Below, piece after piece: positions 5,970 to 24,317 of a stretch of 25,181 nucleotides of DNA. Origin of the DNA: a virus. The DNA is taken from positions 1 to 25,181 of the IMG/VR virus record IMGVR_UViG_3300005511_000077; one strand, given 5' to 3'. The translations under genes were made by a program, and so were the position numbers. The notes under the pieces are model-generated. The model did not search any database. It was not told the DNA's origin and was given only the letters and a program-made list of their open reading frames with translations. Position 1 is the stretch's first letter; every line of letters begins with the position of its first letter.

Positions 5970-8675
5970 TCAACCTCCGATGAAGCGCTGGCCCTGCGCG
6001 TCTTCGTAAACCGGCCGGCCGCCGGACGTGCCGACCTGGCGCGTCATGCCAGGCGGCAGGCTGCCAGGGCCCGGGGCTGCGGCAGGTGCGCTGACCTGAG
6101 CGAGACGGCGCTCCGACTCCGGCACCTCGGCCAAGATGCCGCGGGTGGCGAGCTCGCGATTGCGCCGCTTCTGTTCGATGACCTGTGCGCTGTCGCCGGG
6201 TTGCGGGAAGTACTGCTGGCGCGCGTTCGCAAATTCCGAATCGGCGATCGCGGCACCAGACTCACGCCGCAGCGCCGCGTTGATGAAGTCGCGCTGCGCC
6301 TGCTCGACCTGCTGTTGCGCTGGACTCTGCGTCCAGTTCGCGGCCGCCCCCATTCCAACCGCATCTGCAGCGCGCTTGATGAGCCCGGGCTGATTGACGC
6401 CCGAGGCGGCCATGCGGTTCAGGATGTCTTCGGAGGCCAGCATACGGCTGCCGAACTGCAGCGCCTTCGCCTGGGTGTCGTTGAGCGTGTTCTTGCCCTT
6501 CGGGGTGTTCGGGTCCTGCGGACCGCCGGGTATCGGCTCAAGGCCGGTCCCGTCCGCCTTGACGCGGTAGCCCGTGGGCACGCCGGTATTGCCTGCACGG
6601 ATTGCCTCGATGCCGAGACGTGCACGGTCGATGGCGTTGGATTCCGCCTGTTGTGCGACCTGAGCCTTGGTGCGAGCCTCGGTCGCGCGCTCCTGGATTA
6701 GCGAGCGCTGCGTCTCAGCTGCATCCTTCGCTGCCTGCGCAGCAGCGGCTACGCGCTGCTGAATCGGTGTCTGAGCGCCCTCGACCTGTTGCGCGAAGAC
6801 CTGCGCTCCATTGCGGCCTGGAGGAGCGCCACGCGCCAGAGTCGTGCGCAGTGCAGCTCCATCGAACATTGCCTGGGCGGCGGCTGGACCCGGGTTCTCG
6901 ATGATTGCAAGGCCGCCTTGCGGAACTGCAGCGTTCGATGCCTGCAGACGCGCCAGCCGCGCGTTGGTATCTTCCAGGCCGCCGAGTGCACCCGGGCCAG
7001 CTCCAGGCGCCGAACCAATGTTCGTTCCCGAGAAGTTGTTGCCGTCGCGGGTCACACCCAGCGGCAAGTTCGAAGCCGGTGCTGCCACGCCGGGCGGCAC
7101 TGCGCCGAGGCCCGTCATGGCGTCGACAAGCGGTTCGCCCACAGGCGGCGCAGCGGGAGCCGCCGGCGCCGCGCCGCCCTGAAATTCGAGACTGCGTGGG
7201 TCGGTCAGGTTGTTCATGCGCTGCGGCGCTACTGGGGGCGGCGCAACAGCGGCGGCGGCCGGCACGAAGGTCGAAGGTCCCGTAGCCTGCACACCGCGCT
7301 GTAGCGCCGCGTCGTTCGCGTTGGTGCTGCGCGAGCTGCTTGGACGCGGGTAGATGCCGAAGACCGCGCCACCGCTTTCCGTCGGGGCCAGAGGCGCGGC
7401 GGCAACCGCTGGCGCTTCAGCCGCGAATCGCTCAGCAGGAGAACGAGGATCGGAGCCGGTCATCGAGCGGCCGGCGGCGATGGCGCGATCTGCGCCGAAG
7501 TACCCGAGACCACCTCCCACGATGCCGCCAACCACGGCGCCGGGCGGCCCGAGTACGGAGCCTGCAGCTGCGCCCATTCCGGCACCAGCACCTGCTGCAC
7601 TCAGCCGGCCGACTCCTTGCGCAGCCTGGGCGGCGACATCGAGCCCCGTGGCGTTGGGATTCGTCGCAACGTCATAGACCTGCTTTCCTTCCAGACCTAC
7701 ACCGAGTGCGGCACCAGCGCCGCCGAGCGCTCGCGCCACCGGAATGCGAGCACCAGCAGCCTCGGCGGCCGGCAGAGCTGCAGGTGCTGCCGCAGCCGGA
7801 ACTCGCGTCGGCTGGACCACGTCGACCGGCCCCATGTTGATGGTCGGCCTGCGCCCAATGATCTCGCTGCCTGGCCCAGGTGGCGTGGTCGTCGTCACCG
7901 CCGTATTCGGAGTGGTCGCCGGCAGAGCGCTGGATGGTTGCGGCGCAGGCAGCGCCGGAGTGCGCGCAGCAGCTTGTGCACGGCGACGAAGTTCTTCTTC
8001 CGTCACCAATCCGCCGTCAGCAAAGGCAGGATGGCCGGCGCGCGTCGGCGGTGCCCCGCTGGGCCGATGGGTCGCAGCGATCATCGCCTGCACTTTGCGA
8101 GCTCCAAGCGCATGCACAGTGTCAGCTGGCAGCACGGCCTCACCATTCGACAGCATCGCCGGGACCGAATCGCTAGTCCCTGTACCTGGACCATGCACCA
8201 GACCTCCATGTGCGAACCCAACAGGTCCGGCAGCGAAGAACTGCTGCTGTGGCGCCCCAGCAAACGGCGGCGGGGCTGACGCCGCAGCGAGGGCTTGCCC
8301 TGCGACTGGCGCCGGGAGCACTGGCTTCGGAAAAATGGGCGTCATCGCTGCAGGTGCACCGAGCGGCGGTTGCGACGGAACCGGTGGCGGCGGCCTGTAG
8401 CTGTCGATGGAGCTGACCGTACCTCCTGCCGCCTGTCCGTTGATAGCAACATTCCCGCTCACATTGCCACCCGAGTAGCTGTTGCCTACTCGGCTCACGA
8501 CTCCAAGCTGCGGCGTCGAAGGAGCTGCTACCGAGGCGGGCCGATACGCACCGAGACCTGCCGCAGGCTGGGCGGCAGGTGCAGCGATCTGCGTCACACC
8601 AGGCGACTGGGCGGCAGCAGCGGCGTCTCCGAAGCTATTCGAGCGCGGGCGCTGAGGGTCGAGGAGAGTAGCCAT
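5970..8675 (-). CDS. Large virion structural/internal protein
   Basis: The product has 901 residues; the ATG at 8675 (MATLLDPQRPRSNSF) has AAAGG just upstream and is preferred to a start nine codons earlier. The region at about 162-192 reads GPGTGTSDSVPAMLSNGEAV, a motif known from tape-measure and other phage virion proteins. A glycine-rich hydrophobic segment spans about 316-392. An Ala/Gln/Glu-rich coiled-coil-like part spans about 640-690. Near 791-841 lies the block FINAALRRESGAAIADSEF and YFPQPGDS, which recurs in phage structural proteins. Two related motifs (LGV..R.GN.YSG.N near 57-71, and LGV.RDGNNFSGTN near 539-552) suggest an internal duplication. Its likely role is an ejected or tail-interior protein (inferred). 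A copy of the regulatory motif lies 50 bases upstream. Confidence 0.78.
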   Translation of the reverse strand: MATLLDPQRPRSNSFGDAAAAAQSPGVTQIAAPAAQPAAGLGAYRPASVAAPSTPQLGVVSRVGNSYSGGNVSGNVAINGQAAGGTVSSIDSYRPPPPVPSQPPLGAPAAMTPIFPKPVLPAPVAGQALAAASAPPPFAGAPQQQFFAAGPVGFAHGGLVHGPGTGTSDSVPAMLSNGEAVLPADTVHALGARKVQAMIAATHRPSGAPPTRAGHPAFADGGLVTEEELRRRAQAAARTPALPAPQPSSALPATTPNTAVTTTTPPGPGSEIIGRRPTINMGPVDVVQPTRVPAAAAPAALPAAEAAGARIPVARALGGAGAALGVGLEGKQVYDVATNPNATGLDVAAQAAQGVGRLSAAGAGAGMGAAAGSVLGPPGAVVGGIVGGGLGYFGADRAIAAGRSMTGSDPRSPAERFAAEAPAVAAAPLAPTESGGAVFGIYPRPSSSRSTNANDAALQRGVQATGPSTFVPAAAAVAPPPVAPQRMNNLTDPRSLEFQGGAAPAAPAAPPVGEPLVDAMTGLGAVPPGVAAPASNLPLGVTRDGNNFSGTNIGSAPGAGPGALGGLEDTNARLARLQASNAAVPQGGLAIIENPGPAAAQAMFDGAALRTTLARGAPPGRNGAQVFAQQVEGAQTPIQQRVAAAAQAAKDAAETQRSLIQERATEARTKAQVAQQAESNAIDRARLGIEAIRAGNTGVPTGYRVKADGTGLEPIPGGPQDPNTPKGKNTLNDTQAKALQFGSRMLASEDILNRMAASGVNQPGLIKRAADAVGMGAAANWTQSPAQQQVEQAQRDFINAALRRESGAAIADSEFANARQQYFPQPGDSAQVIEQKRRNRELATRGILAEVPESERRLAQVSAPAAAPGPGSLPPGMTRQVGTSGGRPVYEDAQGQRFIGG

Positions 8676-8725
8676 GGGGACCTTTCTGATGATCCCCGGC
8701 ATTCTTCGCGCGCGCGGCGTGTGGT

Positions 8726-8744
8726 GCGAACCCTACTGGGTGGC
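8726..8744 (-). promoter_or_regulatory. Late-region motif, copy A
   Basis: On the minus strand it reads GCCACCCAGTAGGGTTCGC, one mismatch from the consensus of the three copies. It lies 50 bases before the ATG at 8675 and overlaps the TAG stop of the upstream gene. A weak hairpin (GGGGA 8676-8680 with TCCCC 8693-8697) in the following leader would place the SD in its loop. A phage promoter or regulator-binding site is inferred. Confidence 0.55.
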
Positions 8745-9074
8745 GCGCGGCATCACGCTGATGTCGAGATACGGGCCGTCGGCGCCCTTGTTCGTCAGGT
8801 GGATCGACCAGGACAGTCGCCCGTGTGGCTTCTTCGTGATGTGGCTGTCGGTTAGCAGGTGATCGAACTCGTGATGCACGTAGACGCCCTGCACCGCCGT
8901 CTTCATCTCATCGACCATAGGCCCCGGCTCGCCGGCCTCGGCAGTCCACGGCACTGCGATGAGATCGAAATCCCGAGCCATGCTGCCGTGCACGGCCAGC
9001 GCGTAGCCGTGCTTGCGGGCGATGACGACGAGTGCCGGGTAGAGCACCGCGTACATGGGCGGCGGCGCGGTCAT
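8733..9074 (-). CDS. Nucleotidyltransferase-like phage protein
   Basis: The 113-residue product starts at the ATG at 9074, which overlaps the Rz stop codon (ATGA); an upstream GTG at 9098 is less likely. The segment YALAVHGSMARDFDLIAVPW (about 24-43) has the Gly-Ser followed by Asp-x-Asp arrangement of the nucleotidyltransferase fold, with a much shorter GS-to-DxD spacing than classical members. The C-terminal KPHGRLSWSIHL and YLDISVMPR also fit a small protein that I recall in this lysis-adjacent position in related phages. Whether it transfers nucleotides is unproven. The last codons and the stop lie within regulatory motif copy A. Confidence 0.72.
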   Translation of the reverse strand: MTAPPPMYAVLYPALVVIARKHGYALAVHGSMARDFDLIAVPWTAEAGEPGPMVDEMKTAVQGVYVHHEFDHLLTDSHITKKPHGRLSWSIHLTNKGADGPYLDISVMPRATQ

Positions 9075-9589
9075 TGCTGCAGGAGCGTCGAACGGCACGA
9101 CGCATAGGCTGCGCTCATGGTCTCGATCTCGGTCAGGGCGTCTGCAAGGCGTCGAGCAACAACTTCCGGAAGTACCCCACTGGCCGCGCCGGCGTCTTCT
9201 GCACCAACTCCGGAGGCGGCGGCGGCACCACCTGGGGCGCTTCCACCACTGCGCCCGGCATCGCGGGTGCAGTCGCGCACCCTGACAACCACAGGAGCGC
9301 TGCGCTGGCGCTGATCGTCATCAGAGATCTGGGTGACAGCTTTCTCATCGGTCTTCTCCTGCGCCTTGGCGCGTTTGTCGAGTTCGGCCTGCTTGGCGTC
9401 GCGTTCCTTGGTCCGCTGCTCGAGCAGCCTCTGGGCCGCGGTGTTCGTGGCCACCACGGCTGCGTTCTGGACCTGCAGCGCCAGGCCCGTGGTCTTGGCC
9501 AAGGCGCGGTAGTGCCACGTCGCGAGGCCCAGCACCACCAGCAGTACAGCGAGCACGTAGATGACTGGCGTCTTGAGGTCGGGCACCAT
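9071..9589 (-). CDS. Rz-like i-spanin
   Basis: The 172-residue product has an N-terminal transmembrane anchor (TPVIYVLAVLLVVLGLATW, residues about 7-25). A charged, Ala/Gln/Lys/Glu-rich predicted coiled coil follows (about 45-95, including RTKERDAKQAELDKRAKAQE), then a Gly/Ala-rich C-terminal part. This is the i-spanin architecture: anchored in the inner membrane, it spans the periplasm to meet the lipoprotein partner and fuse the membranes at the last step of lysis. The ATG at 9589 overlaps the endolysin stop (TGATG), with GAGGTG upstream; a GTG one codon earlier is possible. The Rz1 gene is nested in another frame. Confidence 0.88.
   Translation of the reverse strand: MVPDLKTPVIYVLAVLLVVLGLATWHYRALAKTTGLALQVQNAAVVATNTAAQRLLEQRTKERDAKQAELDKRAKAQEKTDEKAVTQISDDDQRQRSAPVVVRVRDCTRDAGRSGGSAPGGAAAASGVGAEDAGAASGVLPEVVARRLADALTEIETMSAAYASCRSTLLQQ
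9133..9348 (-). CDS. Rz1-like o-spanin lipoprotein, embedded in Rz
   Basis: The 71-residue product lies wholly inside the Rz gene in a different frame. It has a basic N-terminus, a hydrophobic segment and a lipobox LSGC with the acceptor cysteine at residue 24. The mature part is short and proline-rich (EAPQVVPPPPPELVQ). A strong SD (AGGAG, seven bases before the ATG on the minus strand) supports independent translation. Outer-membrane lipoproteins of this kind bind the i-spanin tip. The embedded arrangement is the known lambda-type layout. Confidence 0.92.
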   Translation of the reverse strand: MRKLSPRSLMTISASAALLWLSGCATAPAMPGAVVEAPQVVPPPPPELVQKTPARPVGYFRKLLLDALQTP

Positions 9590-10149
9590 CACAGCACCTC
9601 AGCACAGGTCTGCGCCTCGTCGGCGCGCCGGTTGGCGAGGCCGTGCACGAAGGTGCATTGCCGCTGGCCGGCCACCGTCTTGCAGGTGTACGACCACACC
9701 AGCGTGCCGTCGTCGCCGCGCGCGATGCGCTGGCAGCCCAGGGCCCACTGCCCGCGATTCCATGCCGCCATTGCACCGCTGCCGCATGTCGCCGATGGGC
9801 CGAGATTCCAGGCGTGCGATGTCGCCATGTCGAACACCATCTGCGATGGCGGCCGCTTGAAGCACGTTGCCAGTCGCTGCTGCACCGCGACGACGGCAGA
9901 GCGCTCCTCGGCTTCGCACTTCTCATCGGTCCAGCGCTCGCCCACGACGATCGGCGTCTTGGTGACGTGGGGCGTGAGGCCGTTGCAGACCGTGGGAAGG
10001 CCGCCGGCCAGCCGGTCCGCGTAGACCACCAGCACGCGGGCCTTGCCGCTCTCCCACTTCTGGAGGAATCCCATTAGGAACGGGCTGCCGGCCACCAGCG
10101 TCGCGCCAGCGACGACGATGGTGCTGATGACTTTGGTCTTGGCGCTCAT
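9589..10149 (-). CDS. SAR endolysin, GH24 (lysozyme/muramidase) family
   Basis: The product has 186 residues; the start MSAKTKVIS at 10149 overlaps the upstream stop (ATGA). A longer reading frame upstream is a shadow of the holin gene. The N-terminal KVISTIVVAGATLVAGSPFL segment is Ala/Gly-rich and weakly hydrophobic, as in signal-anchor-release endolysins exported by Sec. The catalytic region KWESGKARVLVVYADRLAGG then LPTVCNG gives Glu33, Asp45 and Thr52 as the GH24 E/D/T triad. The E-D and D-T spacings (11 and 6 residues between) are longer than the usual 8 and 5. Several cysteines could form regulatory disulfides. It cleaves peptidoglycan after holin or pinholin triggering. Confidence 0.86.
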   Translation of the reverse strand: MSAKTKVISTIVVAGATLVAGSPFLMGFLQKWESGKARVLVVYADRLAGGLPTVCNGLTPHVTKTPIVVGERWTDEKCEAEERSAVVAVQQRLATCFKRPPSQMVFDMATSHAWNLGPSATCGSGAMAAWNRGQWALGCQRIARGDDGTLVWSYTCKTVAGQRQCTFVHGLANRRADEAQTCAEVL

Positions 10150-10463
10150 TTCGGGGTCGCTCCGGTGCGCCACGCGGTGTATGCCGCCGCGATGGCGACG
10201 CCAAGGCCCACGATGGCGGCCAGCGGCTTCGCCAGCTTGCCCAAGGCCTCGAGCACCTTGAAGGCGCCCTTGCCGTTCGCGAACCACTCGATCAGCTCGC
10301 CCACACTGGACTCGACGCGCTGGGTGGACTCGGTGTTCGCCTTGAGATTCGCCTCGATGCGGCTCATGCGGGCGTCGCCTTCATCGAGCCGCGCGTGGAT
10401 GGCCACGATCTCGGGGTGTGGCTGGTCAGCTGGCGCGCCGTCCGTTGTGTTGGAGTCGGTCAT
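10146..10463 (-). CDS. Holin-like membrane protein
   Basis: The 105-residue product has a polar, charged N-terminal half with coiled-coil character (about 20-65, IHARLDEGDARMSRIEANLK). One C-terminal transmembrane helix follows (LAKPLAAIVGLGVAIAAAYTAW, about 77-98) with a basic end (RTGATPK). It overlaps both the adaptor gene and the endolysin gene by ATGA. Its position directly before a SAR endolysin makes a holin or pinholin the best assignment. The topology is unlike the two- or three-helix classical holins, so the function is inferred mainly from context. Confidence 0.68.
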   Translation of the reverse strand: MTDSNTTDGAPADQPHPEIVAIHARLDEGDARMSRIEANLKANTESTQRVESSVGELIEWFANGKGAFKVLEALGKLAKPLAAIVGLGVAIAAAYTAWRTGATPK

Positions 10464-10798
10464 CGTTCGACGATCCTCAAGAAAATGGACCGGTCATCGA
10501 TCCGTGGCGGGGTGTTGTTGGTGGTGATGCGGCAGGTCACGCGCAGCTTGTTCGGGCCCGTCGCCAGCTTCGTGCCGCCGGAGAGCCAGACGGTGGCCGT
10601 GGTGCCGTCGAAGGCCTGGTCCACGATGGTCAGCGAGGGGTCAACAACGAACTCCGCGCTCGCGATCTGGTCGTCACCGTTCAGGGCAAGCCAAGCGCTC
10701 CAGTCGAAGGGGTAGTCGAGCACCGCATCGGGGTCTTTCTCGATCACGGAATCACCGTTCCGATCGATCTCGTAGGTGGTGGGCTTGGGCGTGGCCAT
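10460..10798 (-). CDS. Fibre-tail adaptor-like protein
   Basis: The 112-residue all-beta protein contains DPDAVLDYPFDWSAWL near residues 22-37, an 'I..AEFVVDPSLTI' strand region and the end CRITTNNTPPRIDDRSIFLR. This order is typical of the phage fibre-tail adaptor family, Ig-like proteins that connect tail fibres to the tail. It lies directly downstream of the LamG fibre gene (nine bases) and overlaps the holin gene by ATGA. That places it at the fibre/lysis boundary. Confidence 0.74.
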   Translation of the reverse strand: MATPKPTTYEIDRNGDSVIEKDPDAVLDYPFDWSAWLALNGDDQIASAEFVVDPSLTIVDQAFDGTTATVWLSGGTKLATGPNKLRVTCRITTNNTPPRIDDRSIFLRIVER

Positions 10799-10807
10799 GC
10801 TGGTCTT

Positions 10808-12250
10808 TCAGTCGGTGAAGGCGATGCGGCGGTCCTCGCCAACGACAGCCACGGCACGGCCTTCCGGTACTGCTGCGAAGGCTCGGTCCTCGGGGACGAT
10901 GCCGAGTACACGGCGCTCGGCGCGCACATCGATCGTGCGCTCGTTGCGCTCAAAGATGTACTCGTGCCGTAGGCGGGCTGTCTGCGAGACTGCTGCGAGG
11001 ACCTGGGCTGCGACGAAGGCGCGCACCGTGTCGGTCACGATGCCGGTGGCGGTCTGGGAAACCCCCTGCAGCAACTGCGTTGCAGCGAATGCATCTCTCG
11101 CCTGAGCCACTGCACTCTGAGAAACGCCTCCCAAAGCTTGAGAAGCAGAGGCTTTGATGCCCGCATGGGCGACACTCAGTTGAGTGACGCCTGCGAGCGT
11201 ATTTGCTGCACTTGTTTTGGCCGTGACCGTGGCGCCCGCAGCCTGAGAAACGCTCGCAAGAGTCTGAACTGCAGAAGCGGTTCGATCTGCGCCACCAGTG
11301 GTCCCGGTAGCGGACTGGGCGACGCTGAAGAGAGTTTGAGCCGCAGAGGCGCTGCCAGCTATGGAAGCACTCGCAGCCTGTCCAACAACGGCCAAGGTCT
11401 GGGCAGCAGCAGCAGACACTTTCACAGCGGCAGTTGTTGAAGAGGTCACTCCATCCAAAGTCTGGTCCGCAGCGAAGGACCGATCAGCGCCAGTCGAGAC
11501 TGTTCCAGTCGCGATCTGCGAAACCCCGTCAAGCACCTGCTGGAGCACGACAGGCGTATCGTCAAACGGGGCAGTTGGCGGTGTGAAGTTCGTGACGTAT
11601 CGAGCGACGCCCTTGGTGATCCTCACCTCGTCAATGTTCCCGTTCCAGTCATACGTGGGATTGCGGGTATTGACCTGGGCTCCGATTGAGAATCGGAGGA
11701 GAGAGATTGTGTAGTCGCGGGTATCGGTTACGCTGGCTTTAAGCACGCCATTGACATAGATCGCCAGCGCAGTAAGGACGCGGCAAACCGCGACATGCAC
11801 CCAATCTCCGGTGTTGATGGGAGCGCCACTCGCTCCTAGAACCAAAACGCCGCTGCCGCCGTCGGTGGACCACCATTGCGGATTGCCGGAGCTGTCCATA
11901 TACAGCTCCCAGCAATTGATCTGGGAGGTCTGGTAGTAGTCGAACAGCACCCGGTCGGTGACAAGCGGCGACACCTTCACCCATGCTTCTACGGTGAAAT
12001 CGCCGGTGCCAAACTGGAAGTCCGTGAGATTGCTCGTTGTCGAGATGTAGTCGCCAACCCCATCACACAGCATTGAGGCGCTGCCGAATTTCGGAGAGCC
12101 CGAGCTGAGCTTCGCGTCTCCGTTGACGGTGTAAGTCTTCCCCTTCTGATCCGTGAACGTTGTCGATCCGTCTGCACCGTCGAAGTGCAGATGCGTGACG
12201 ACGCTGCCATACGCTGCGTCGCTGTTGCTCGGGATGTTGCGATCGGCCAC
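10808..12250 (-). CDS. LamG-domain tail fibre/adhesin with nine tandem repeats
   Basis: The 480-residue product starts at a GTG with GAGG five bases upstream. Residues 13-230 form a LamG/concanavalin-like domain (FDGADGSTTFTDQKGKTYTV, FTVEAWVK, WVHVAV, IYVNG, GNIDEVRITKGVARY). Residues about 234-427 are nine degenerate copies of an 'AxQxLxxVxQxA' unit with 21-residue spacing and a few three- or four-residue insertions. Residues 430-475 are five short repeats of about ten residues built on a V-P-E-D-R theme (for example RAERRVLGIV, PEDRAFAAV). The likely role is host-surface (glycan) binding at the tail. The C-terminal repeats probably attach to the virion via the adaptor encoded next. Confidence 0.82.
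   Translation of the reverse strand: MADRNIPSNSDAAYGSVVTHLHFDGADGSTTFTDQKGKTYTVNGDAKLSSGSPKFGSASMLCDGVGDYISTTSNLTDFQFGTGDFTVEAWVKVSPLVTDRVLFDYYQTSQINCWELYMDSSGNPQWWSTDGGSGVLVLGASGAPINTGDWVHVAVCRVLTALAIYVNGVLKASVTDTRDYTISLLRFSIGAQVNTRNPTYDWNGNIDEVRITKGVARYVTNFTPPTAPFDDTPVVLQQVLDGVSQIATGTVSTGADRSFAADQTLDGVTSSTTAAVKVSAAAAQTLAVVGQAASASIAGSASAAQTLFSVAQSATGTTGGADRTASAVQTLASVSQAAGATVTAKTSAANTLAGVTQLSVAHAGIKASASQALGGVSQSAVAQARDAFAATQLLQGVSQTATGIVTDTVRAFVAAQVLAAVSQTARLRHEYIFERNERTIDVRAERRVLGIVPEDRAFAAVPEGRAVAVVGEDRRIAFTD
10970..11545 (-). repeat. Nine coding tandem repeats, mostly 63-bp period
   Basis: The anchor leucine of each unit falls at residues 240, 265, 286, 307, 331, 352, 373, 394 and 418 of the LamG fibre, giving spacings of 25, 21, 21, 24, 21, 21, 21 and 24. 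Six of the units carry alanine-leucine-valine-glutamine cores such as QTLASVSQAA. The period of 21 equals three heptads, which would suit a trimeric stalk. Confidence 0.85.
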
Positions 12251-12262
12251 GGTTCCTCAGGC

Positions 12263-12667
12263 TCAGGGGTTGCCTTCGGTGATCGTCCAGCCAGTGATCT
12301 GCACGGACTGGCCCGACGCGATGCTGGTGTTGTCCACCGTCATGTCGCCGCCGCCACCGGTTGCGGTCACGCTGCCCTGCATGTGGCACGTGGTGCCGGC
12401 GCTGTCCTTGATGCGGTAGTGGCCTGCGGTGCCGGTGCCCGAGGCGGTGGCGCTCAACGGCACACCGCTGAAGGTGAGAACGCCGCTGGCCTGCGTCGAC
12501 CAGTCCGACGCCAAGGTGAACTCGGCAAGCAGCGTGCCGCTGTCGACCGCTGCGCAGTTAGCCGGCTGCGCGCCGGTGCGGATCTGCACCTTCGGGGTGG
12601 TGCCGATGGTGGTTTCGATCTGTGCGCTGCGCGCGTTGCGCAGCGTCGTGCCCATCTGGATGGTCAT
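12263..12667 (-). CDS. Phage structural protein, beta-rich
   Basis: The product has 134 residues; the ATG at 12667 (MTIQMGTTLRNARSAQIETT) is chosen because AAGGAG lies seven bases upstream. The sequence is Thr/Gly/Ser-rich and beta-forming (GVLTFSGVPLSATASGTGTA, HYRIKDSAGTTCHMQGSV), like small phage tail/fibre accessory proteins. It is the first gene after regulatory motif B and is followed 12 bases later by the LamG fibre gene. The precise role is unknown. Confidence 0.72.
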   Translation of the reverse strand: MTIQMGTTLRNARSAQIETTIGTTPKVQIRTGAQPANCAAVDSGTLLAEFTLASDWSTQASGVLTFSGVPLSATASGTGTAGHYRIKDSAGTTCHMQGSVTATGGGGDMTVDNTSIASGQSVQITGWTITEGNP

Positions 12668-12714
12668 GGGAAGCTCCTTGAATGCCGACATGGTGTCGGC
12701 CGAAGAGGCCCCGC

Positions 12715-12734
12715 GCGAACCTTACTGGGGTGCC
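12715..12734 (-). promoter_or_regulatory. Late-region motif, copy B
   Basis: On the minus strand it reads GGCACCCCAGTAAGGTTCGC. It lies 47 bases before the ATG at 12667. A seven-base-pair hairpin (GCCGACA 12684-12690 with TGTCGGC 12694-12700) lies between motif and SD. It sits where the late operon is interrupted by the + strand gene at 12793, so a promoter here would restart transcription of the fibre and lysis genes. Confidence 0.6.
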
Positions 12735-12792
12735 AGCTAGACTTCTCGTTCAGCCGAGAGGCGCTTCCTCAACACTCTTCGAAAGACCCGAG

Positions 12793-13143
12793 ATGTCCGT
12801 GCTACAGCCCATGCAAGAATTCACTTTCCACTTCGCAGATGGCCGCGTGGCATTTGCCCACCTCTATCAACATCCGGACTTGAGTTGGTTTGCATCCCAG
12901 ACGGAGCTACTTGCCGGCGACAGCGTCAGCGCAGGGCAGTTCTATGCGTCAGTTCCTTGCCCTCGCGGGGCCACGGCGGAACAAGCGTTCGAAATGCTCG
13001 TCCAGCGCGCTGTTGGCGGATCAACGGTGGCCGGAACCACCCTGACCGCAATCGACAACCCGAACAACGATGAATTCGTGAAGATCGCTGCGCAACGCCA
13101 GCTCGCCCCAGGAGTTGAGATCCGGCGAAACGGGCAGGCCTGA
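12793..13143 (+). CDS. Hypothetical moron protein inserted in the late region
   Basis: The product has 116 residues; the ATG at 12793 (MSVLQPMQEFTFHFADGRVA) is preferred because the longer N-terminal extension from 12682 has shadow-like composition. It is the only + strand gene between 4357 and the right edge. It is convergent with the 344-residue gene and divergent from the 134-residue gene. Codon use looks less GC-biased than its neighbours. It is soluble and acidic-leaning, with no signal or transmembrane segment. I recognise no family. Orientation and composition fit a moron, possibly expressed in the lysogen; its promoter is not obvious. Confidence 0.6.
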   Translation: MSVLQPMQEFTFHFADGRVAFAHLYQHPDLSWFASQTELLAGDSVSAGQFYASVPCPRGATAEQAFEMLVQRAVGGSTVAGTTLTAIDNPNNDEFVKIAAQRQLAPGVEIRRNGQA

Positions 13144-13183
13144 GTGGTCGCCAAGACTCGCCTCGCCCTCGAATCCCGCTGAA

Positions 13184-14218
13184 CTACAGCGAAGTCGAAT
13201 CGCTGCCGCTGATGCTGGCGCCGGCGTTGATGCCGTTCAGCGAGGCTGCGGCGACCTGGGTGGTCGAGGTCAGGGCTGCGATGGCGGCCTGCACCCGGTC
13301 GCTCAGCGTCTGGTTCTTCGAACGCAGGTTCGCTTCGTTGCCGGACTGCTTGATCTGCGCGTCGGCGATCGCCAGGCGCACGCGCGGCTCCAGCGCAGCG
13401 CTCTCGGCTTGGTAGAGGGCCACCAGGTTGCGCGCCAGATCGCTGCGCACGCTCACCATCGCGGTGGCGAGGCCTGCGGCGACCTGATCGCCCTGCAGAA
13501 GCGTCCGGATGTACTCGCCGGCGCTGGCCACTGCCTTCATCCACATGTCCAGCGCTTGGCCGACCGCGAACCGAGCGTTCTCCAGCTCGGCGCGGAAGGC
13601 CTCGATGCTGATGTCGCGGCTCTGCTCGGCCAGCTTGTTGCGCATGTCCTGGCGGATGAGCTGCACCTGGTGCACGAGCGCGCCCGGCGGCAGCGGGAAG
13701 CCCCGGTTGGCGAAGGCCTGCATGGCATCGTTCTCGGCGCGCATCGCCTCGGTGTTGAGCCGGGCACGGCCGCGCTCGTAGATCTGCGCCTCCACCGCCG
13801 CATTCACGCCGGTGCCGCCGGTGGTCAGCGCGCGGTTGATCCATGCGATGGCGTTGTCGAAGTACGAGCGGTCCGGGAAGTAGGTCTGCAGGTAGTCGAC
13901 GTAGCCCATCGTGATCTCGTCGTGGATCTCGGCGCGGGCGTCGTCGAAGATCGCTTTCGCGTCGGCCGGGTTGTTGTCCGGCAGCACGGGCTTGATCGGC
14001 ATCACGTAGCTGGTGTCGAGGTCGACCAGCGGCACCTGAGGCGCCGGGTCGGTGATCTCAATGGCGCCATCAGCGCGCGCCGACGCGGCATTGAGCAGCA
14101 GCACGGCGTTGCGCCACTTGCCGTTCATGACCTGCGAGACGATGACCGGCGCACCGGCACCTCCGGTGCTGGGATCTGGCACGGAAACGAGGTCGCCAGG
14201 GTTGATAGGAGTCGTCAT
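13184..14218 (-). CDS. Helical phage virion protein
   Basis: The 344-residue product has a short beta-like N-terminus (about 1-75). A long, mostly alpha-helical region (about 85-310) follows, with amphipathic stretches such as GYVDYLQTYFPDRSYFDNAI and RQDMRNKLAEQSRDISIEAF. The tail is Ser/Thr/Gly-rich (STTQVAAASLNGINAG). It overlaps the 606-residue gene by ATGA. The helical, Gln/Ala-rich composition would suit an internal or tail-interior protein. I recognise no named family. Confidence 0.72.
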   Translation of the reverse strand: MTTPINPGDLVSVPDPSTGGAGAPVIVSQVMNGKWRNAVLLLNAASARADGAIEITDPAPQVPLVDLDTSYVMPIKPVLPDNNPADAKAIFDDARAEIHDEITMGYVDYLQTYFPDRSYFDNAIAWINRALTTGGTGVNAAVEAQIYERGRARLNTEAMRAENDAMQAFANRGFPLPPGALVHQVQLIRQDMRNKLAEQSRDISIEAFRAELENARFAVGQALDMWMKAVASAGEYIRTLLQGDQVAAGLATAMVSVRSDLARNLVALYQAESAALEPRVRLAIADAQIKQSGNEANLRSKNQTLSDRVQAAIAALTSTTQVAAASLNGINAGASISGSDSTSL

Positions 14219-16035
14219 GCTCTGGTCTTTCTGGAGAGGTCGGCGACGATGAACTCGAGGCTGTCGATCTCGAAGTCGGCACCGTCCTGGTTGTAGAAAA
14301 CGGGGATCAGGTAGTTAGTCTTCAGGCCTTTCCCGAGCTTGAAGCGGTGCTGTTGCAGCTCTTCCGAGTAGCCCTGCGCCTGGTACTCGAACGAGCCGGC
14401 CGGGCCGGAGACCTTGAGCACCAGCGGGGACTCCGACGCGGCGCCGATGAAAACCTCAGCCACCGTCTTCTGCTGTGAGTTGCCGAAATCCAGCTTCCCG
14501 GGGCAGATCGCGGCCTGAATCGGAGCACCGGCATCGCTGTCGCCTTCCAGCAGGAACAGGCCGCCCAGCTTGGCGCCGTAGTAGCGGTCGCCGATGCGCG
14601 CGAAGCTGTTGAAGCCGTAGTTGGCGTAGCTGGTGCTGCCGTAGCCGGCCATGTTGACGGCGTGCACCTCCAGGTCGGAGCCGGGCGTGGTCAGCGGCAC
14701 GTCGAAGGTGAAGCCGTCGCGGATGTCCACGATCTCGACACCGCCGGCGATGCTCATCGGGATGTCGAACCCGAAGGCGTCGCGGATGTCGGCGACGTCG
14801 ATGCTGGTGCCCGTCATCGGCACATCGAACCCGAAGATGTCGCGGGCGTCGGCCTGGTCTATCGCGGTCGCCAGCATCGGCACGTCGAACACGATGCCGT
14901 CGAGCAGGTAGCGCATGGTCGCCGACTCGACGCCGAGCGTGCCCACCGCGGCCGGCGCGATGCCAAGGATCTGGCCGCCGTCATGGTCGGACAGGAAGCC
15001 GCTCGGCGCCGGCGCAGCGGCCGTGCTGGTGAAGACCTGCCCCGAGAGCATGTTCATGGCGCCCGCGGCGGCGGCCATGGTGCCGATGATCTTGTTGTTG
15101 GAGTCGATCACCGGCGTGCCGCCGTACATCGCGCCTTCCAGCGGCGGCATCTCGCCAGCGATCTGCGCGGTGTCGGCGTCGGCCAGGAAGCCAGTCAGCG
15201 CCGGCATGTTGGCGCGGATGCCGTTGCCCACGCCCAGGAAGCCCACGGCGGCCGGCATCTCGGTCACGAACTGGGCCGTAGTGCTGGTCTCGCTGAGCAG
15301 GCCCTGCGCGCCCGGCATGGTTCCGACGATGCCGCCCGAGCTGTAGACCGCGATGGAGGGCTCGTCGATGCTGTCGCCGGAGCTGAAGAGCGCCGCCGCC
15401 ATGAAGAGGTCGGCGCCCGGCGGCACGGCCGAGGCCTCAGACGCGAAGGGCGTGCCGTTCTTGCGGTACGTGGCCAGGCCGCCGGCGGCGACATCCATCT
15501 GGAACTCGTCGCTGGAAAGGTACGAGGTCAGGAAGGTGCCCGTGAGCGACTTCACCGAGCCGGTGTTGAAAAGCAGGCCGTGCAGGATGTGCCCGTAGCT
15601 GGCCGGCGGCGCGCTGGCCTCGCGGGTGACGCCGACCACCGCGCCCATGACGGCCTGCGGCACCTTGTAGGTGATGCGGGCCCCGCCGTGCGCCGCCTCG
15701 ATGGAATGCGCGAAGGAGGTCCAGCCCTGCGGCGGCACGTCGACGGCGAAGGCCGGCGAGCCAATCACCTCGGCCGTGGCCGGATGGAAGACCTCCACGG
15801 TGTAGGTGTACGGGGTCAGCGGCGACAGGTTCACCGGGTAGTTCGGATCCCAGACCGTGCTGGTGCGGCCCGTCACCGGGTCGGTCGTCGTGACCCAGGC
15901 GCCCTTCGAGGTATTCGGCGGCCCCACGCGCACGGCGGTGCGGGACTCGGTGCTCCAGTAGGCCGGGCGCGCCGGCTGGTACGGCACCTCGGGCACCGTG
16001 TAGCTGTAGCCGTTTCGGATCAGTTGGTTCGTCAT
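14215..16035 (-). CDS. Tail/fibre protein with two tandem-repeat blocks
   Basis: The 606-residue product has an N-terminal beta-rich domain (about 1-230, with YTYTVEVFHPATAEVIGSP). Residues about 236-372 contain 'MPAxxGFL' units at 240, 260, 277, 296, 320, 342 and 360. Residues about 380-450 contain four 'FDVP' units (383, 403, 423, 444) with a D(V)ADIRDAFG connector. The C-terminal domain (455-606) is beta-rich (GSFEYQAQGYSEELQQHRFK). Repeats of about 20 residues suggest stacked beta-solenoid coils. It belongs to the tail block between the 511- and 344-residue genes; the exact family is not recognised. Confidence 0.76.
   Translation of the reverse strand: MTNQLIRNGYSYTVPEVPYQPARPAYWSTESRTAVRVGPPNTSKGAWVTTTDPVTGRTSTVWDPNYPVNLSPLTPYTYTVEVFHPATAEVIGSPAFAVDVPPQGWTSFAHSIEAAHGGARITYKVPQAVMGAVVGVTREASAPPASYGHILHGLLFNTGSVKSLTGTFLTSYLSSDEFQMDVAAGGLATYRKNGTPFASEASAVPPGADLFMAAALFSSGDSIDEPSIAVYSSGGIVGTMPGAQGLLSETSTTAQFVTEMPAAVGFLGVGNGIRANMPALTGFLADADTAQIAGEMPPLEGAMYGGTPVIDSNNKIIGTMAAAAGAMNMLSGQVFTSTAAAPAPSGFLSDHDGGQILGIAPAAVGTLGVESATMRYLLDGIVFDVPMLATAIDQADARDIFGFDVPMTGTSIDVADIRDAFGFDIPMSIAGGVEIVDIRDGFTFDVPLTTPGSDLEVHAVNMAGYGSTSYANYGFNSFARIGDRYYGAKLGGLFLLEGDSDAGAPIQAAICPGKLDFGNSQQKTVAEVFIGAASESPLVLKVSGPAGSFEYQAQGYSEELQQHRFKLGKGLKTNYLIPVFYNQDGADFEIDSLEFIVADLSRKTRA
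14686..15330 (-). repeat. Coding repeats of about 60 bp (MPA-GFL and FDVP units)
   Basis: The repeats span residues 236-450 of the 606-residue tail protein: seven degenerate MPAxxGFL-type units, then four FDVP-type units spaced 20, 20 and 21 residues apart. They are also visible in DNA as recurring GGCACGTCGAA-like and GTCGCGG.TGTC segments at 14698-14890. Confidence 0.8.
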
Positions 16036-16045
16036 GGGCGAGGCC

Positions 16046-17581
16046 TCAAATCGGTGGGGCGATGCGGCTGTCCGATGCCCAGGGCGTGCCCGGTGTCGCG
16101 CCCGCGGGCTGGCCGTTGCGGCGCAGGAAGGTCAGCGCGGCGAAGTCCTCGAGCTGGAACTTGCCGACATCGCTCACGGGCGCCGCGGCGCGGTCGGTGA
16201 GCACCGCCCTCTTCTGCCACGTCGCGCCGCGGTCGCGCGACTCGAAGAGCGAGTGGGCACCGTCGTACATCGGCGCGACGATGATCCCGGGCGCGATGGC
16301 GGACACGATACCGGTGCGGTAGTTCGGCTGCGGCGCCGGCGGCATGGTGGCGATCGAGACGCCATCGGGCGTGAACAGCAGCACCGGCGGCTCGTTCTGG
16401 ATGTTGGTGTAGACCGTGGCCAGCGGCCGGGTAACGACGACGGCGCCGCCCTCGACACCAACGCAGCCGCCGCTCCAGAACGCCAGGGCGGCATTCACCT
16501 CACCGTCGAACAGCGTCATGGTGCCCAGCAGCGTGCGGGCGTTGGCGTCGATGATGCCGAGCTTGACCTTGGCCTTCAGCACGAAGTCGGCGCCCGGGTT
16601 CGGCGCGTAGGGCACCACCACGTAGGCCAGCGCGCGCGAGGCGTTCAGCGGCGCCGCGTAGAAGCCGCAGGCGTTGACCGCGGTGTTGAACATCGTGGCA
16701 TACGACGGCACCGGCAGCGTCTGGATGGTGTCGAAGAACTCCCGGAACAGCTCGGTGCTGCTGGCCTCGGCCCAGGTCGCGCCGGCGTCATCGGTGAACT
16801 GGAAGACTAGGCCCGGGCACGCCGCGGCATCGACGCTGGAGCCGCTGTAGTGCGGCCGGAGGTAGGCGCCCATGAACACGTGCCGACCGGGGGCGATGCG
16901 CGCCGGCGCTGCGTAGGTCGCCAGCTGGTTCGGCATGTAGAGGGTGTCGCCGAGCACGCGCGTGGTCCCGTCGTCGCGCAGGAAGGCGTGGTAGTGCTGG
17001 CCGCTGGGGTCCAGGCTCTGGTAGACGTAGGCGGACTGAAATTTCCGCGCCCCGGGCGGCCCGTAGACCTCTCCGGGCACGAACGTGAACTGGGTGCCGT
17101 ACTCGAAGGGCGCGAAGGCCGTGAAGTCGTAGAACGCCACGAAGCGGCGGCCATCGCGGGTGCGGTAGGTCTGCAGCTTGTAGGCGTTGCAGGGCTTGCC
17201 GTCGAAGTCGGTCGCCGTGCCCAGCAGCGTCGACGTGGTGTCCAGGCCCAGCCCGCGGCCGTAGTAGCGGATGCGATCGACGCCCAGCAGACCGTCGTCG
17301 GCGATGAAGGTGCCGCGGTCCGTGAAGCGCCCGCGCGCGGTGGCGGAGCCCACCACCCGCTTCTCGCCGTCGATCATGCCGATGCTGTAGAAGCCGTCCT
17401 CGAGCGTGCCCTCGCGCGTGACTTCCAGGAAGTCGCCGCGCTTGTGGGCGACGACCTGGCCGCCGGTCTCGGGATCAAAGCGGCGCTTCTTCAGGTAGGG
17501 CACCGTCGACGAGGTGTCGAGGAAGGTGGCGTCCTTCCCGCCCTGACCGCTGAAGCCGTCGCGGTACTTGACGGGCTTCAT
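16046..17581 (-). CDS. Phage tail-associated structural protein
   Basis: The 511-residue product is beta-rich and Gly/Tyr-rich throughout (FLDTSSTVPYLKKRRFDPET, GRRFVAFYDFTAFAPFEYGT, HYHAFLRDDGTTRVLGD). A C-terminal portion (SLFESRDRGATWQKRAVLTD) resembles a sialidase/BNR-type 'S.D.G.TW' beta-propeller blade, and FQFTDDAGATWAEAS near the middle gives another. A beta-propeller-like or receptor-binding tail protein is therefore plausible. It overlaps the upstream LamG-like gene by ATGA and is followed ten bases after its stop by the 606-residue gene. Catalytic residues cannot be assigned. Confidence 0.72.
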   Translation of the reverse strand: MKPVKYRDGFSGQGGKDATFLDTSSTVPYLKKRRFDPETGGQVVAHKRGDFLEVTREGTLEDGFYSIGMIDGEKRVVGSATARGRFTDRGTFIADDGLLGVDRIRYYGRGLGLDTTSTLLGTATDFDGKPCNAYKLQTYRTRDGRRFVAFYDFTAFAPFEYGTQFTFVPGEVYGPPGARKFQSAYVYQSLDPSGQHYHAFLRDDGTTRVLGDTLYMPNQLATYAAPARIAPGRHVFMGAYLRPHYSGSSVDAAACPGLVFQFTDDAGATWAEASSTELFREFFDTIQTLPVPSYATMFNTAVNACGFYAAPLNASRALAYVVVPYAPNPGADFVLKAKVKLGIIDANARTLLGTMTLFDGEVNAALAFWSGGCVGVEGGAVVVTRPLATVYTNIQNEPPVLLFTPDGVSIATMPPAPQPNYRTGIVSAIAPGIIVAPMYDGAHSLFESRDRGATWQKRAVLTDRAAAPVSDVGKFQLEDFAALTFLRRNGQPAGATPGTPWASDSRIAPPI

Positions 17582-18243
17582 GCGACCTCGCGGGTGTTGA
17601 CGAAGTTGGTCCAGAAATCAGGGGTTGCCGGCGGCGGGCCTGCGGTGTCGATGCGCATGTGCAGCACGGCACCGCCGTCGATCCCGGTGTTGGAGCGCTG
17701 GATGTCGATACTCGGGATCAGCTTGGCGACGGTCGGCGCCTGCGGGATGGTGCCGCGCAGCACGCCAGCGGTCCAGACCTCGACCTCGCCAGCGACCTGG
17801 TCGACGCGCATCTCGAAGGCGCAGACCGTGCCGACACCGCCGGGCTGCGTCCAGTCCACGGTCTGGATGCTGCCGCTGATGCTGCACAGGAACTGCACGA
17901 AGTACTGCGAGCCGGAGCCTGGCGTCAGCGTAAGGCCGATGTAGTCGCCCGACGACCCGCTGCTGGACGTGAAGACCTTCAGCCGCAGGAAGTTCTGCGA
18001 CGAGAACGCCGAGGCCGTGTTCTTGATCGAGCCGCTGAATGTGAAATCGTCCGTGGACAGGATGTCCGTGAGCAGGTGGATGCCCTCGTCGGCTGCGTTG
18101 GCCGACACCACGCAGGCGCCACCACCATCGAGCTCGCACTCTCCGGCCGGCGAAAGGCTCGCTCCCCAGGCGCCGCCGGTCGTGACGCGGCCCGCGATGG
18201 AGCCCGCCGCACCAACGAAGTCATCCTCGAAGAGCAGAGCCAT
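17578..18243 (-). CDS. LamG/jelly-roll-like phage protein
   Basis: The 221-residue product begins LFEDDFVGAAGSIAGR, the 'DdF.g..gt.l.gr' opening of concanavalin-like phage proteins. Beta-strand segments follow (FTFSGSIKNT, FLRLKVFTSS, CAFEMRVDQVAGEVEVW, LIPSIDIQR). This fold usually binds carbohydrate or acts as a trimeric tail adhesin. It is the second LamG-like protein of the window and is coupled to the next gene by ATGA. Confidence 0.74.
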   Translation of the reverse strand: MALLFEDDFVGAAGSIAGRVTTGGAWGASLSPAGECELDGGGACVVSANAADEGIHLLTDILSTDDFTFSGSIKNTASAFSSQNFLRLKVFTSSSGSSGDYIGLTLTPGSGSQYFVQFLCSISGSIQTVDWTQPGGVGTVCAFEMRVDQVAGEVEVWTAGVLRGTIPQAPTVAKLIPSIDIQRSNTGIDGGAVLHMRIDTAGPPPATPDFWTNFVNTREVA

Positions 18244-18247
18244 GGCT

Positions 18248-18682
18248 TCAGCCGCTCGGCAGCGCCGTCGTGTAGAAGTCCACCGCCTGCGGCGCGCCGC
18301 TCACCAGCGCCACGCTGGTCAGGACGCCATCGGTGCCGCCGGTGCCCAGAGTGCCCTGGATTCGGACCTGACTGGTCGACAGCGTGCCGTCATCGGCCGA
18401 GAGCACGTGGCGGAAGAACGTGGCGGTGCCGGTCGCGGCGTTGGTGCCGCTCCAGGTCTCGCCGGGCGCCTTGGCCAGCACGCCGCCCGCGGCCGTGGTG
18501 TCGTAGTTGATGCCGGCGCCACCGTTCTTGATGGTCACCAGCAGCGTGTTGCCGGAAAGCGCGGCGTCGGCCGTGGCCGGCACCGGGCCCGAGTAGATGC
18601 GGATCTCGCCGCCGGCCATCGCTGCCTTGAGCGAGCCGGAGTCGAGCATGTAGTTGCGCAGGCCAGTGGAGAGTTTGAGCAC
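18248..18682 (-). CDS. Small phage structural protein
   Basis: The 144-residue product starts at a GTG with AAGGA seven or so bases upstream. It opens with LKLSTGLRNYMLDSGSLKAA, then GGEIRIYSGPVPATADAALSG. This opening recurs in small tail-region proteins of GC-rich phages. The rest is Gly/Thr/Ala-rich beta sequence. The role is unknown, probably a tail component given its place between two tail genes. Confidence 0.76.
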   Translation of the reverse strand: MLKLSTGLRNYMLDSGSLKAAMAGGEIRIYSGPVPATADAALSGNTLLVTIKNGGAGINYDTTAAGGVLAKAPGETWSGTNAATGTATFFRHVLSADDGTLSTSQVRIQGTLGTGGTDGVLTSVALVSGAPQAVDFYTTALPSG

Positions 18683-18693
18683 GGCGGTTCCTT

Positions 18694-19194
18694 TCAGGGG
18701 GTGGGGGTTGCGGTCGGGCCCGCGAAGATCTGCAGCTTCGAGCCATTGGCCTGCACCTTGGGCGATGCGAAGCGCACCACGCTGAGCAGCACGCCCGCGG
18801 TGCTGCCCTTGGCCGAGGCCGACACCATGAAGGCGCCCATCACCGTCTTGTCGGCGGTGAAGACGAATTCCGACAAGCTGGCCGCGTTGCTGACCGAGCC
18901 GCCGGATACGGCGCCCTCGTCAAATTCCTTGCGGGAGCCGGTGTAGGCCGTGCACTCGGTGGCGAGGCCGGCGATGGTCGCCGCGGTCTCGCCGCCGTCG
19001 GGCGTGTAGTCGCCCTCGTAGAGGCCGATGTACCAGGTCGGCACCTGGGTCACACTCTTGAAGGCCAGGCCCAGCAGGAAGTTGAGCCCTTCCATGGGGA
19101 CGCGGTTCAGGCGCGGCGGATCTTCAGCGAGCAGCCGGCCATCCGGGCTCCACGACAGCGCGCGGTAGAGCACGCCAGCTTTCTGGTGGTTCAT
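18694..19194 (-). CDS. Phage tail-region protein
   Basis: The product has 166 residues. Residues 30-160 contain NFLLGLAFKSVTQVPTWYIG, LATECTAYTGSRKEFDEGAV and FVFTADKTVMGAFMVSASAK, a pattern shared by small tail-region proteins of podovirus-like prophages. No enzymatic motif is visible. It starts within the stop of the nozzle-like gene (ATGA) and ends 11 bases before the 144-residue gene. Confidence 0.72.
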   Translation of the reverse strand: MNHQKAGVLYRALSWSPDGRLLAEDPPRLNRVPMEGLNFLLGLAFKSVTQVPTWYIGLYEGDYTPDGGETAATIAGLATECTAYTGSRKEFDEGAVSGGSVSNAASLSEFVFTADKTVMGAFMVSASAKGSTAGVLLSVVRFASPKVQANGSKLQIFAGPTATPTP

Positions 19195-20432
19195 AGGTCG
19201 GTTTCCTTGACGATGGTTTCGACTGCGAAAGACCCCTGCGCCGCGCCGATGGGCCGGGCCGGCTCCTGGCGGGCGCAGAGGATGTGGTGGGCGCCGTCCT
19301 GCTCGCGGAACAGCGTGGCGCCGGCGCGCGCGGGCCCGAACTTCAGGGCGTTCTCCTGCACATTGGTGGCCGAGCCATCGGGTGTGCCGATCACGAGGCC
19401 GCGCGGCGACAGCCAGAACGCCTGCTGCGTGCCCTGCCCGTCCGGCGTCGGCACCTCGCCGCCGGAGCCCTGCAGGCCGCCATAGGGCAGCACCACGACG
19501 GGCGCGGTGTCGAGCAGCCCACCGGCGAGCCAGTAGGTGCGGTCGGCACAGACGAAGACGCCGGTTTCGCAGGGCTGCACCACGGTGATCGGCGCCGGGA
19601 ACGGAATAAACCCCTTCGAGGGGGAAAACTGGCCGTAGTAGTACGGCTCGGAGATCAGCAGCGCGGTGCCGGCGGCCACCAGCAGCGAGCCCTTGTAGTG
19701 CCGCACGATCGAGCCCGGCGGCATGTCGGCCAGCAGCAGCGAGCGCAGCTCGGGCCCGGTGTTGGTCAGCGCCACGATGTCGCCACCGTCCGTGGCCGTG
19801 GCGTTGAAGACCTCGCCGTTGGGCCCGGTCATGTAGACCACGGTGTCGGCACCGAGGCCGGTGATGCGGATGCCGCTGTTCGCCGGCAGTGTCAGCGCCA
19901 CGGGCGGCGTCGAGCCGGACTCGCCCAGCGGGCCCGACTCGGTGAAGGCGACCTGATAGCGCCCGGCCGGCAGCGCGCCGGCGATGGCGGACACCGTGGG
20001 CACGACGACAGGCCGCGGCGTGGCCAGGAGCAGTGCGGTGGTGCCGCGCAGCCGCCCGATGCGCTGGCCGTTCGACCAGACCACGTCGCCGTCGGGCATG
20101 CGCTGGTAGCTGATGGGCGCCATCTCGGGCAAGCCGGACAGCACGCTGGTGGGCGTCAGGCCGGATGGCGTGGGCGCCAGATGCAGCAGGTCATTGCCGA
20201 TCGCGCAGTAGCCCTCGGTGTCATCGCCCCATACCGAGTGCGCGGAGGCGCCGGAGAGCGCGAGCGTGGTGCCGCGGCGGCGCTGCAGGTATCCGCGCCC
20301 GTTGAGGTCGATGTTCTCCCCAGCCGACAGGAACGTCGCCTTCGAGCGATCCGGCAGCGTGCGCCCGAGCTGCGTTGGCGGCAGCCGATTGTTCACGCCG
20401 GGGGCCAAGGAGCCGAGATTGATGGAGCGCAT
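19191..20432 (-). CDS. Tail nozzle/tubular-B-like protein
   Basis: The product has 413 residues from the ATG at 20432 (MRSINLGSLAPGVNNRLPPT). A GTG at 20459 would add nine residues but falls almost against the regulatory motif. The opening 'PGVNNRLPPTQL ... GENIDLNGRGYLQRRRGTTL' is typical of beta-propeller-like tail (nozzle) proteins that list 'PG..NR' and 'N.DL...G.l.RR.G'. The body is beta-rich with repeating blades (RYQVAFTESGPLGESGS, VFVCADRTYWLAGG, QQAFWLSPRGLVIGT). It is probably the distal short-tail protein that closes the DNA channel. Its relation to T7 gp12 is an inference from this pattern. Confidence 0.72.
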   Translation of the reverse strand: MRSINLGSLAPGVNNRLPPTQLGRTLPDRSKATFLSAGENIDLNGRGYLQRRRGTTLALSGASAHSVWGDDTEGYCAIGNDLLHLAPTPSGLTPTSVLSGLPEMAPISYQRMPDGDVVWSNGQRIGRLRGTTALLLATPRPVVVPTVSAIAGALPAGRYQVAFTESGPLGESGSTPPVALTLPANSGIRITGLGADTVVYMTGPNGEVFNATATDGGDIVALTNTGPELRSLLLADMPPGSIVRHYKGSLLVAAGTALLISEPYYYGQFSPSKGFIPFPAPITVVQPCETGVFVCADRTYWLAGGLLDTAPVVVLPYGGLQGSGGEVPTPDGQGTQQAFWLSPRGLVIGTPDGSATNVQENALKFGPARAGATLFREQDGAHHILCARQEPARPIGAAQGSFAVETIVKETDL

Positions 20433-20434
20433 GG

Positions 20435-20450
20435 CCGGGAGTGTTCCCGG
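20435..20450 (-). other. Hairpin immediately before the nozzle gene start
   Basis: CCGGGA (20435-20440) and TCCCGG (20445-20450) form a perfect six-base stem with a four-base loop, ending two bases from the ATG. There is no T-run, so it is not a terminator. It may control access to the start codon or mark an mRNA 5' end downstream of motif C. Confidence 0.6.
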
Positions 20451-20464
20451 CGCTCCCACATGCG

Positions 20465-20483
20465 TCGAACCTTAGTGGGTGGT
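20465..20483 (-). promoter_or_regulatory. Late-region motif, copy C
   Basis: On the minus strand it reads ACCACCCACTAAGGTTCGA, three mismatches from the three-copy consensus, with the core CACCCA.TAAGGTTCG kept apart from one base. It lies 32 bases before the ATG at 20432, in the gap between the connector and nozzle genes, and is followed by the hairpin at 20435-20450. Confidence 0.55.
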
Positions 20484-20509
20484 CCATCGCGCCCCGCGCA
20501 GGCGTGGGC

Positions 20510-21211: not shown

Positions 21212-21213
21212 GG

Positions 21214-21600: not shown

Positions 21601-21625
21601 GAGATGGTCCTTGAAGTTGAGGGAA

Positions 21626-22399: not shown

Positions 22400-22420
22400 C
22401 GGATTTCTCTCCTGTAGATG

Positions 22421-22448
22421 AAAAAAGGGGCGGACCGGAGCCCGCCCC
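22421..22448 (-). terminator. Rho-independent terminator after the head genes (minus strand)
   Basis: On the minus strand GGGGCGG (22448-22442) pairs with CCGCCCC (22433-22427) around an eight-base loop, followed by TTTTTT (22426-22421). It lies between the 157-residue head protein and the RyR-domain gene, where some read-through would give head proteins in excess over tail proteins. Confidence 0.92.
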
Positions 22449-22472
22449 GAACGGGGGTCAAGGAGGAGTCGG

Positions 22473-24291: not shown

Positions 24292-24317
24292 TCAAGACTC
24301 CGAAATGGCGGGATGGG

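Follow-up and report, generated by a model that had tools for sequence, protein, structure and literature searches.

A putative two-part late promoter element and its candidate activator, phrog_8117, in F116-like temperate phages

In P2 and P4, several late promoters are turned on by a small phage zinc-finger activator, Ogr or delta, and the Ogr sites form a spaced dyad near -55. At the middle promoters of T4 (MotA/AsiA), a phage box centred near -30 replaces the -35 element beside a sigma-70 -10. In Mu, one activator (C) serves a number of separate late promoters whose -10 and -35 elements both deviate from the consensus, its site lying just upstream of or overlapping the -35 (PMC4461284). 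The late promoters of phiEco32 and 7-11 are reported to be phage-specific and read by the host core polymerase with a phage sigma factor (PMC8948821).

The stretch of DNA analysed here, called the window, is a virus record of 25,181 bases and a fragment of a 64 kb temperate phage of Variovorax; a near-identical contig of 64,007 bases (G001) was fetched, together with Variovorax relatives, via the Hc3-like protein. A preliminary description of the window had noted three copies of a GC-rich motif before late genes and proposed either promoters for a single-subunit phage RNA polymerase or binding sites for a late activator or antiterminator. From sequence comparison and structure prediction, we consider the motifs to be the activator boxes of late promoters, which would be served by the host sigma-70 RNA polymerase together with a phage activator, phrog_8117 (probability about 0.83).

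A box and a -10-like hexamer

All three copies (A, B and C) lie where they had been reported, on the minus strand, and differ from CACCCAGTAAGGTTCG at one, two and one positions, respectively. With up to three mismatches, CACCCAGTAAGGTTCG has four matches in the window compared with 0.15 expected in shuffles; the fourth, at 1299-1314 on the plus strand, was rejected as chance-like and lies inside a gene. The copies had been placed in gaps between genes, with copy A also covering a stop codon; B and C do lie in gaps, and copy A extends ~10 nt into the end of the gene upstream of it. The repeated motif is real, and it is one half of a two-part element (Table 1). Duplication of a whole upstream segment was discarded as the source of the repeats, the flanks being unlike outside the two blocks.

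Table 1. Predicted promoter parts and associated features in the window.
Feature	Position	Strand	Remarks
Activator box, late promoter copy A	8727..8742	-	CACCCAGTAGGGTTCG; predicted
Copy A -10 hexamer AAGAAT	8701..8706 (8706-8701)	-	20 nt after box
Large virion/tape-measure-like gene	5970..8675	-	ATG 8675, SD GAAAGG
Activator box, late promoter copy B	12716..12731	-	ACCCCAGTAAGGTTCG; predicted
Copy B -10 hexamer CACCAT	12690..12695 (12695-12690)	-	20 nt after box
Virion protein gene (phrog_3758), heads tail-fibre/lysis operon	12263..12667	-	ATG 12667, SD AAGGAG
Opposite-strand cassette gene, directly upstream of promoter B	12811..13143	+	
Activator box, 16 bp, late promoter copy C	20466..20481	-	CACCCACTAAGGTTCG; about -48 to -33; predicted
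Copy C -10 hexamer AACACT	20440..20445 (20445-20440)	-	20 nt after box
Inverted repeat around copy C -10	20435..20450	-	CCGGGAACACTCCCGG
Head-closure Hc3-like gene (phrog_8040)	19191..20432	-	ATG 20432, 7 nt past -10; probably leaderless

The box is a 16-mer with the consensus CCCC-N3-TARGGTTCG, which takes the form CCCCCASTARGGTTCG in Variovorax, and exactly 20 nt past it follows a -10-like hexamer, nAnnnT or [AC]AN[AC]AT. When 33 copies, taken from six phages and an additional Variovorax prophage, are aligned without spacing adjustment, only two blocks prove conserved, at positions 0-15 and 36-41, and little else; A-11 and T-7 are each present in 31 of the 33. Among 58 non-redundant copies, with spacings of 19-21 allowed, the A is found in 57 and the T in 56, figures that are slightly helped by the choice of spacing, unlike those from the 33-copy alignment. 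A few copies have a spacing of 19 or 21, and some boxes have diverged. The motif had been described as lacking a -10 box, which is wrong, as each of the three window copies has the hexamer at a distance of exactly 20 nt from the 16-mer.

When a sigma-70 -10 melts, sigma flips out two of its bases, A-11 and T-7; the A and T of the hexamer match them, and the host sigma-70 RNA polymerase should therefore recognise this -10. The first base of the hexamer is T in only 7/58 copies, which makes it weak as a sigma-70 -10, and a scan of positions 8000-25181 for sigma-70 consensus promoters returned none. What is found, a -10 at a fixed distance from a box and no -35 consensus, is the arrangement of an activator-dependent sigma-70 late promoter. 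The 16-mer, at about -48 to -33, would be the site for an activator that replaces the -35, and we infer that the late promoters are probably read by the host RNA polymerase.

Two alternatives invoke a different polymerase or sigma factor. With a phage single-subunit RNA polymerase of the T7/T3 type, the motif alone would be the promoter and transcription would start at its 3' end. The motif is phage-specific, repeated and directional, in the arrangement pointed out by the preliminary description, and its core is loosely like T3-type promoters. However, this reading does not predict an nAnnnT block at fixed spacing, nor an ATG that follows the block by 7-8 nt, and two blocks 20 nt apart are present in place of the one contiguous block to +1 of T7-type promoters. 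Moreover, no PF00940 polymerase gene was found in seven related contigs (three >60 kb) or in AP1, F116, 8P, Y7 and Y11, in a search that gave 1e-109 for the T7 positive control and may have missed a very divergent N4-type enzyme. We regard this reading as extremely improbable and do not retain it.

Alternatively, box and hexamer could be read by a phage sigma factor, or through an appropriation of sigma like that by T4 MotA/AsiA. The same architecture would result, with a box in place of the -35 and a first hexamer base that is not T, and a sigma-remodelling wHTH protein is hard to distinguish from an activator by sequence. Against this, sigma-70 region 2 was detected in none of eight box-bearing genomes while 10/14 control genomes were positive, and matches to sigma region 4, several of them at the terminase small subunit gene, all fell below the family cut-off. 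A sigma-based switch is thus unlikely.

Distribution along the phage and among relatives

A search of the full phage for the core, as the preliminary description had suggested, recovers six copies of CCCASTARGGTTCG with at most one mismatch in G001, all on the late strand: the three of the window and three past its right edge, which precede a small ORF, the terminase small subunit gene and a scaffold-like gene. So placed, the set heads essentially every late operon. The strand is the same throughout, with 81/81 sites of the scanned set and 58/58 non-redundant copies on the late strand and none on the other; several copies on this strand, each heading a late operon, is the pattern of late promoters. 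Coding sequence takes up 92-98% of the late regions, but 24 of 30 box cores fall completely within gaps; the non-gap cores mostly overlap just the final codons of the preceding gene, and one is inside an ORF that has probably been called from too far upstream. In four Variovorax genomes (5-8.5 Mb), exact matches to the box are confined to the prophage, and one-mismatch matches elsewhere are about as frequent as those of a reversed-pattern control.

Late regions also contain opposite-strand cassettes, and 9 of 11 sit immediately upstream of a box, at a distance of 34-210 nt. A next late promoter that restarts transcription behind the insertion would be how such cassettes can sit in late operons.

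The element is found not only in other Variovorax phages but also in Acidovorax phage AP1 (a more distant relative of the window phage), Pseudomonas phages F116 and 8P, Shewanella phage Y11 and Pseudoalteromonas phage Y7. The box of copy C is kept at the same gene in L004, L011, G007 and AP1. In F116, the classic Pseudomonas transducing phage, the element precedes terS, scaffold, a later structural gene and the holin; in 8P, Y11 and the AT-richer Y7 it stands at the genes corresponding to those of F116, mostly with the same spacing. The core in these three phages reads CCCCTGTARGG or CCACTGTAAGG.

The strongest test comes from 72 scaffold-gene loci that were chosen via an unrelated hairpin sequence, regardless of promoter. 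A box of more than 10 bits lies within 240 nt upstream in 44/72 loci compared with 0/72 for reversed or complementary controls; some of the phages later scored had also served to train the weight matrix, but G104, G144, L063-L090 and all 72 of these loci had not. The hexamer follows 19-21 nt after the box in all 44 box-positive loci, and in several of the remaining loci GACACT stands exactly 20 nt after a box that has diverged. The initial suggestion of a phage-specific late promoter element is strongly supported. These phages share a two-part element of fixed spacing, on one strand and in gaps, that is deeply conserved, specific to phages and accompanied by phrog_8117.

Start codons, inverted repeats and nearby elements

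In 20/58 copies an ATG lies 7-8 nt past the hexamer, where transcription should begin, and the resulting mRNAs should therefore be leaderless. No SD precedes these ATGs, and a -10 about 7 nt before the start codon without an SD is the signature of leaderless genes. Such copies stand mostly at terS, the Hc3-like gene and a virion protein; in the remaining copies, window copies A and B among them, a short SD-containing leader precedes the start codon. We infer that transcription would start behind the hexamers, with leaderless mRNAs from the immediate-ATG copies.

Several gene starts are revised on these grounds. The upstream GTG at 20459 precedes the -10 of copy C, and the start of the Hc3-like gene is therefore moved to the ATG at 20432; likewise, the ORF-finder starts at 8702 and 12691 overlap the -10 and are moved to 8675 and 12667. 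The terS gene of F116 (L057 4777-4852) has a probable start 25 codons upstream of the annotated one and in frame, an ATG 8 nt after the -10. The late region of the window encodes two paralogous phrog_3758 virion proteins, at 12263-12667 and 18248-18682.

It had been proposed that each leader contains a small hairpin, in the order motif, hairpin and then SD. All three inverted repeats exist, but they are not generally part of the leader. Those of B (12684-12700) and C (20435-20450) flank the -10 upstream of the predicted transcript start and so would be absent from the transcript, and the repeat of A (8676-8697) contains the predicted start. Repeats of at least 4 pairs occur in 10/21 copies with an immediate ATG versus 1/37 others, and in the immediate-ATG class they are more frequent than in permutations (p ~0.01, with relatedness ignored). 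The proposed order is not general either, as the repeat is found almost only where an ATG follows at once without an SD; a hairpin as a general promoter part was accordingly dropped, being confined to the leaderless class. The arm sequences of the repeats around the -10 differ between copies.

Inverted repeats before several start codons would also suit an RNA element in the late transcript, acting in antitermination, in processing or as a translational hairpin, and the late genes could be read through from upstream. However, the conserved blocks are those of sequence and not of structure, no hairpin is general (1/37 leadered copies), the hexamer has the A and T placed as in a -10, and Rfam matched only a tRNA at the edge of the window; an RNA element is very unlikely.

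A separate hairpin, GCCAC-GGCGA[TG]AT-GTGGC, lies directly before the SD of the scaffold-like gene (L063 17529-17546, just past the right edge of the window) and is shared by F116, 8P and many IMG/VR contigs. At least 120 stretches of viral contigs, with 78 distinct contexts, contain the exact 18-mer, and nearly all those checked precede a scaffold-like ORF of ~350 aa; Y7 and Y11 have CCC-[AT]CCGATAT-GGG at the scaffold leader. This hairpin has no match in Rfam and looks like an undescribed translational operator. The left end of the window (1-60) is a truncated tRNA, probably the prophage attachment site.

The candidate activator and its relation to described systems

Outside the virion and packaging genes, the six box-bearing phages first compared have one gene in common: an early gene of ~170 residues shortly before the late genes, which matches phrog_8117 (function listed as unknown) and in F116 is gp37, immediately before terS. 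It is present in 10/10 box-bearing phages versus 0/8 controls that share only the capsid lineage, and 13 activator-bearing phages have 53 sites compared with 2 stray sites in 8 capsid-related controls. Viral loci fetched via two single phrog_8117 proteins carry a box downstream on the same strand in 28/28 cases. Thirty contigs of the hairpin set were searched for phrog_8117: it is present in all 20 chosen as long (42-67 kb), and those scored carry the box, sometimes diverged; it is found in 0/4 long box-less contigs (31-63 kb), and the six further contigs that lack it are shorter fragments of little weight. G176 has a weak phrog_8117 match and no box.

The subtype of the box follows the clade of the activator, for example, the recognition helix LTTVDDRIK goes with CCC[CT]G[TG]CTAGGG, and CCCCTGTAGGG accompanies most VDDRL proteins; both the co-occurrence and the matching subtypes could stem in part from shared descent in one phage group. 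An AlphaFold model of the phrog_8117 protein (pLDDT 80, pTM 0.42) has a winged helix(-turn-helix) that leads into a small sheet and then a long helix, and the PDB entries most like it are DtxR/IdeR DNA-binding domains (E 6e-3 over ~60 residues). The binding site of a late activator, the second option of the preliminary description, is the best fit; the phrog_8117 protein, which co-occurs with the box and has a predicted winged helix, is the candidate to bind it. A small early gene on the reverse strand of G001 (G001_36, 20194-20610), also present in G007, lacks the winged helix and shares with phrog_8117 just the middle domain; its product is possibly a partner or an antagonist of the candidate activator.

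The tie between box and phrog_8117 is one of co-occurrence, and the box might instead be the site of a host regulator. This is highly improbable, as exact matches in the four host genomes lie only in the prophage and the presence of the box follows phrog_8117 across hosts of several genera.

With phrog_8117 as activator, its product would be made early after induction, from the last early gene, and would bind the 16-bp box. The host sigma-70 RNA polymerase would read the nAnnnT -10 without a -35, needing the phage protein on the box, and four to seven promoters on the late strand would be switched on, each heading one operon (terminase; scaffold/capsid; head closure and tail; tail fibre/lysis; ejection proteins). 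Many of these promoters would start transcription on the A of the ATG and yield a leaderless mRNA; at others the mRNA would have a 5' leader with an SD. Such a scheme would equip a large group of phages, F116 included, with a concrete switch for late transcription that comprises both the cis element and a candidate trans factor. It gives phrog_8117 a testable function, predicts leaderless late mRNAs in proteobacterial phages and corrects gene starts.

The papers on phiC725A (F116-like), JC1 and AP1 were found to contain no description of these promoters. Among the systems introduced above, the late promoters of Mu with their transactivator C are alike in that one phage activator, here a candidate, serves several late promoters; the box is different, and here many start codons lie at the predicted transcript start. 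A Mor/C homologue (PF08765) was searched for and found in 0/8 box-bearing genomes, and the system is therefore not a member of the Mu Mor/C family. In P2 and P4, too, several late promoters answer to a small phage activator, but in place of the dyad of Ogr sites the phages described here have one 16-bp box, at -48 to -33, and their candidate activator is a predicted winged-helix protein. The box in place of a -35 is shared with T4 MotA/AsiA, but its centre is at about -40 and the genes are late, not middle. Phage-specific late promoters read by the host core polymerase would be a trait in common with phiEco32 and 7-11, but no sigma region 2 gene was found here (eight genomes). T7 and T3 late promoters are likewise phage-specific and repeated, whereas the element here is two-part and sigma-70-like, and no single-subunit polymerase gene was found. 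Dispersed late promoters driven by an activator are a known kind of system; as far as the papers examined show, neither the box nor the candidate activator family nor the fusion of start codons to promoters has been described. It appears rather likely, somewhat beyond an even chance, that phrog_8117 is the founder of a new family of phage late activators, unrelated in sequence to Mu C, which with the host RNA polymerase would fire a dispersed regulon across F116-like phages of beta- and gammaproteobacteria, part of it (terS, head closure, virion protein) via leaderless mRNAs, with start codons fused to the promoters.
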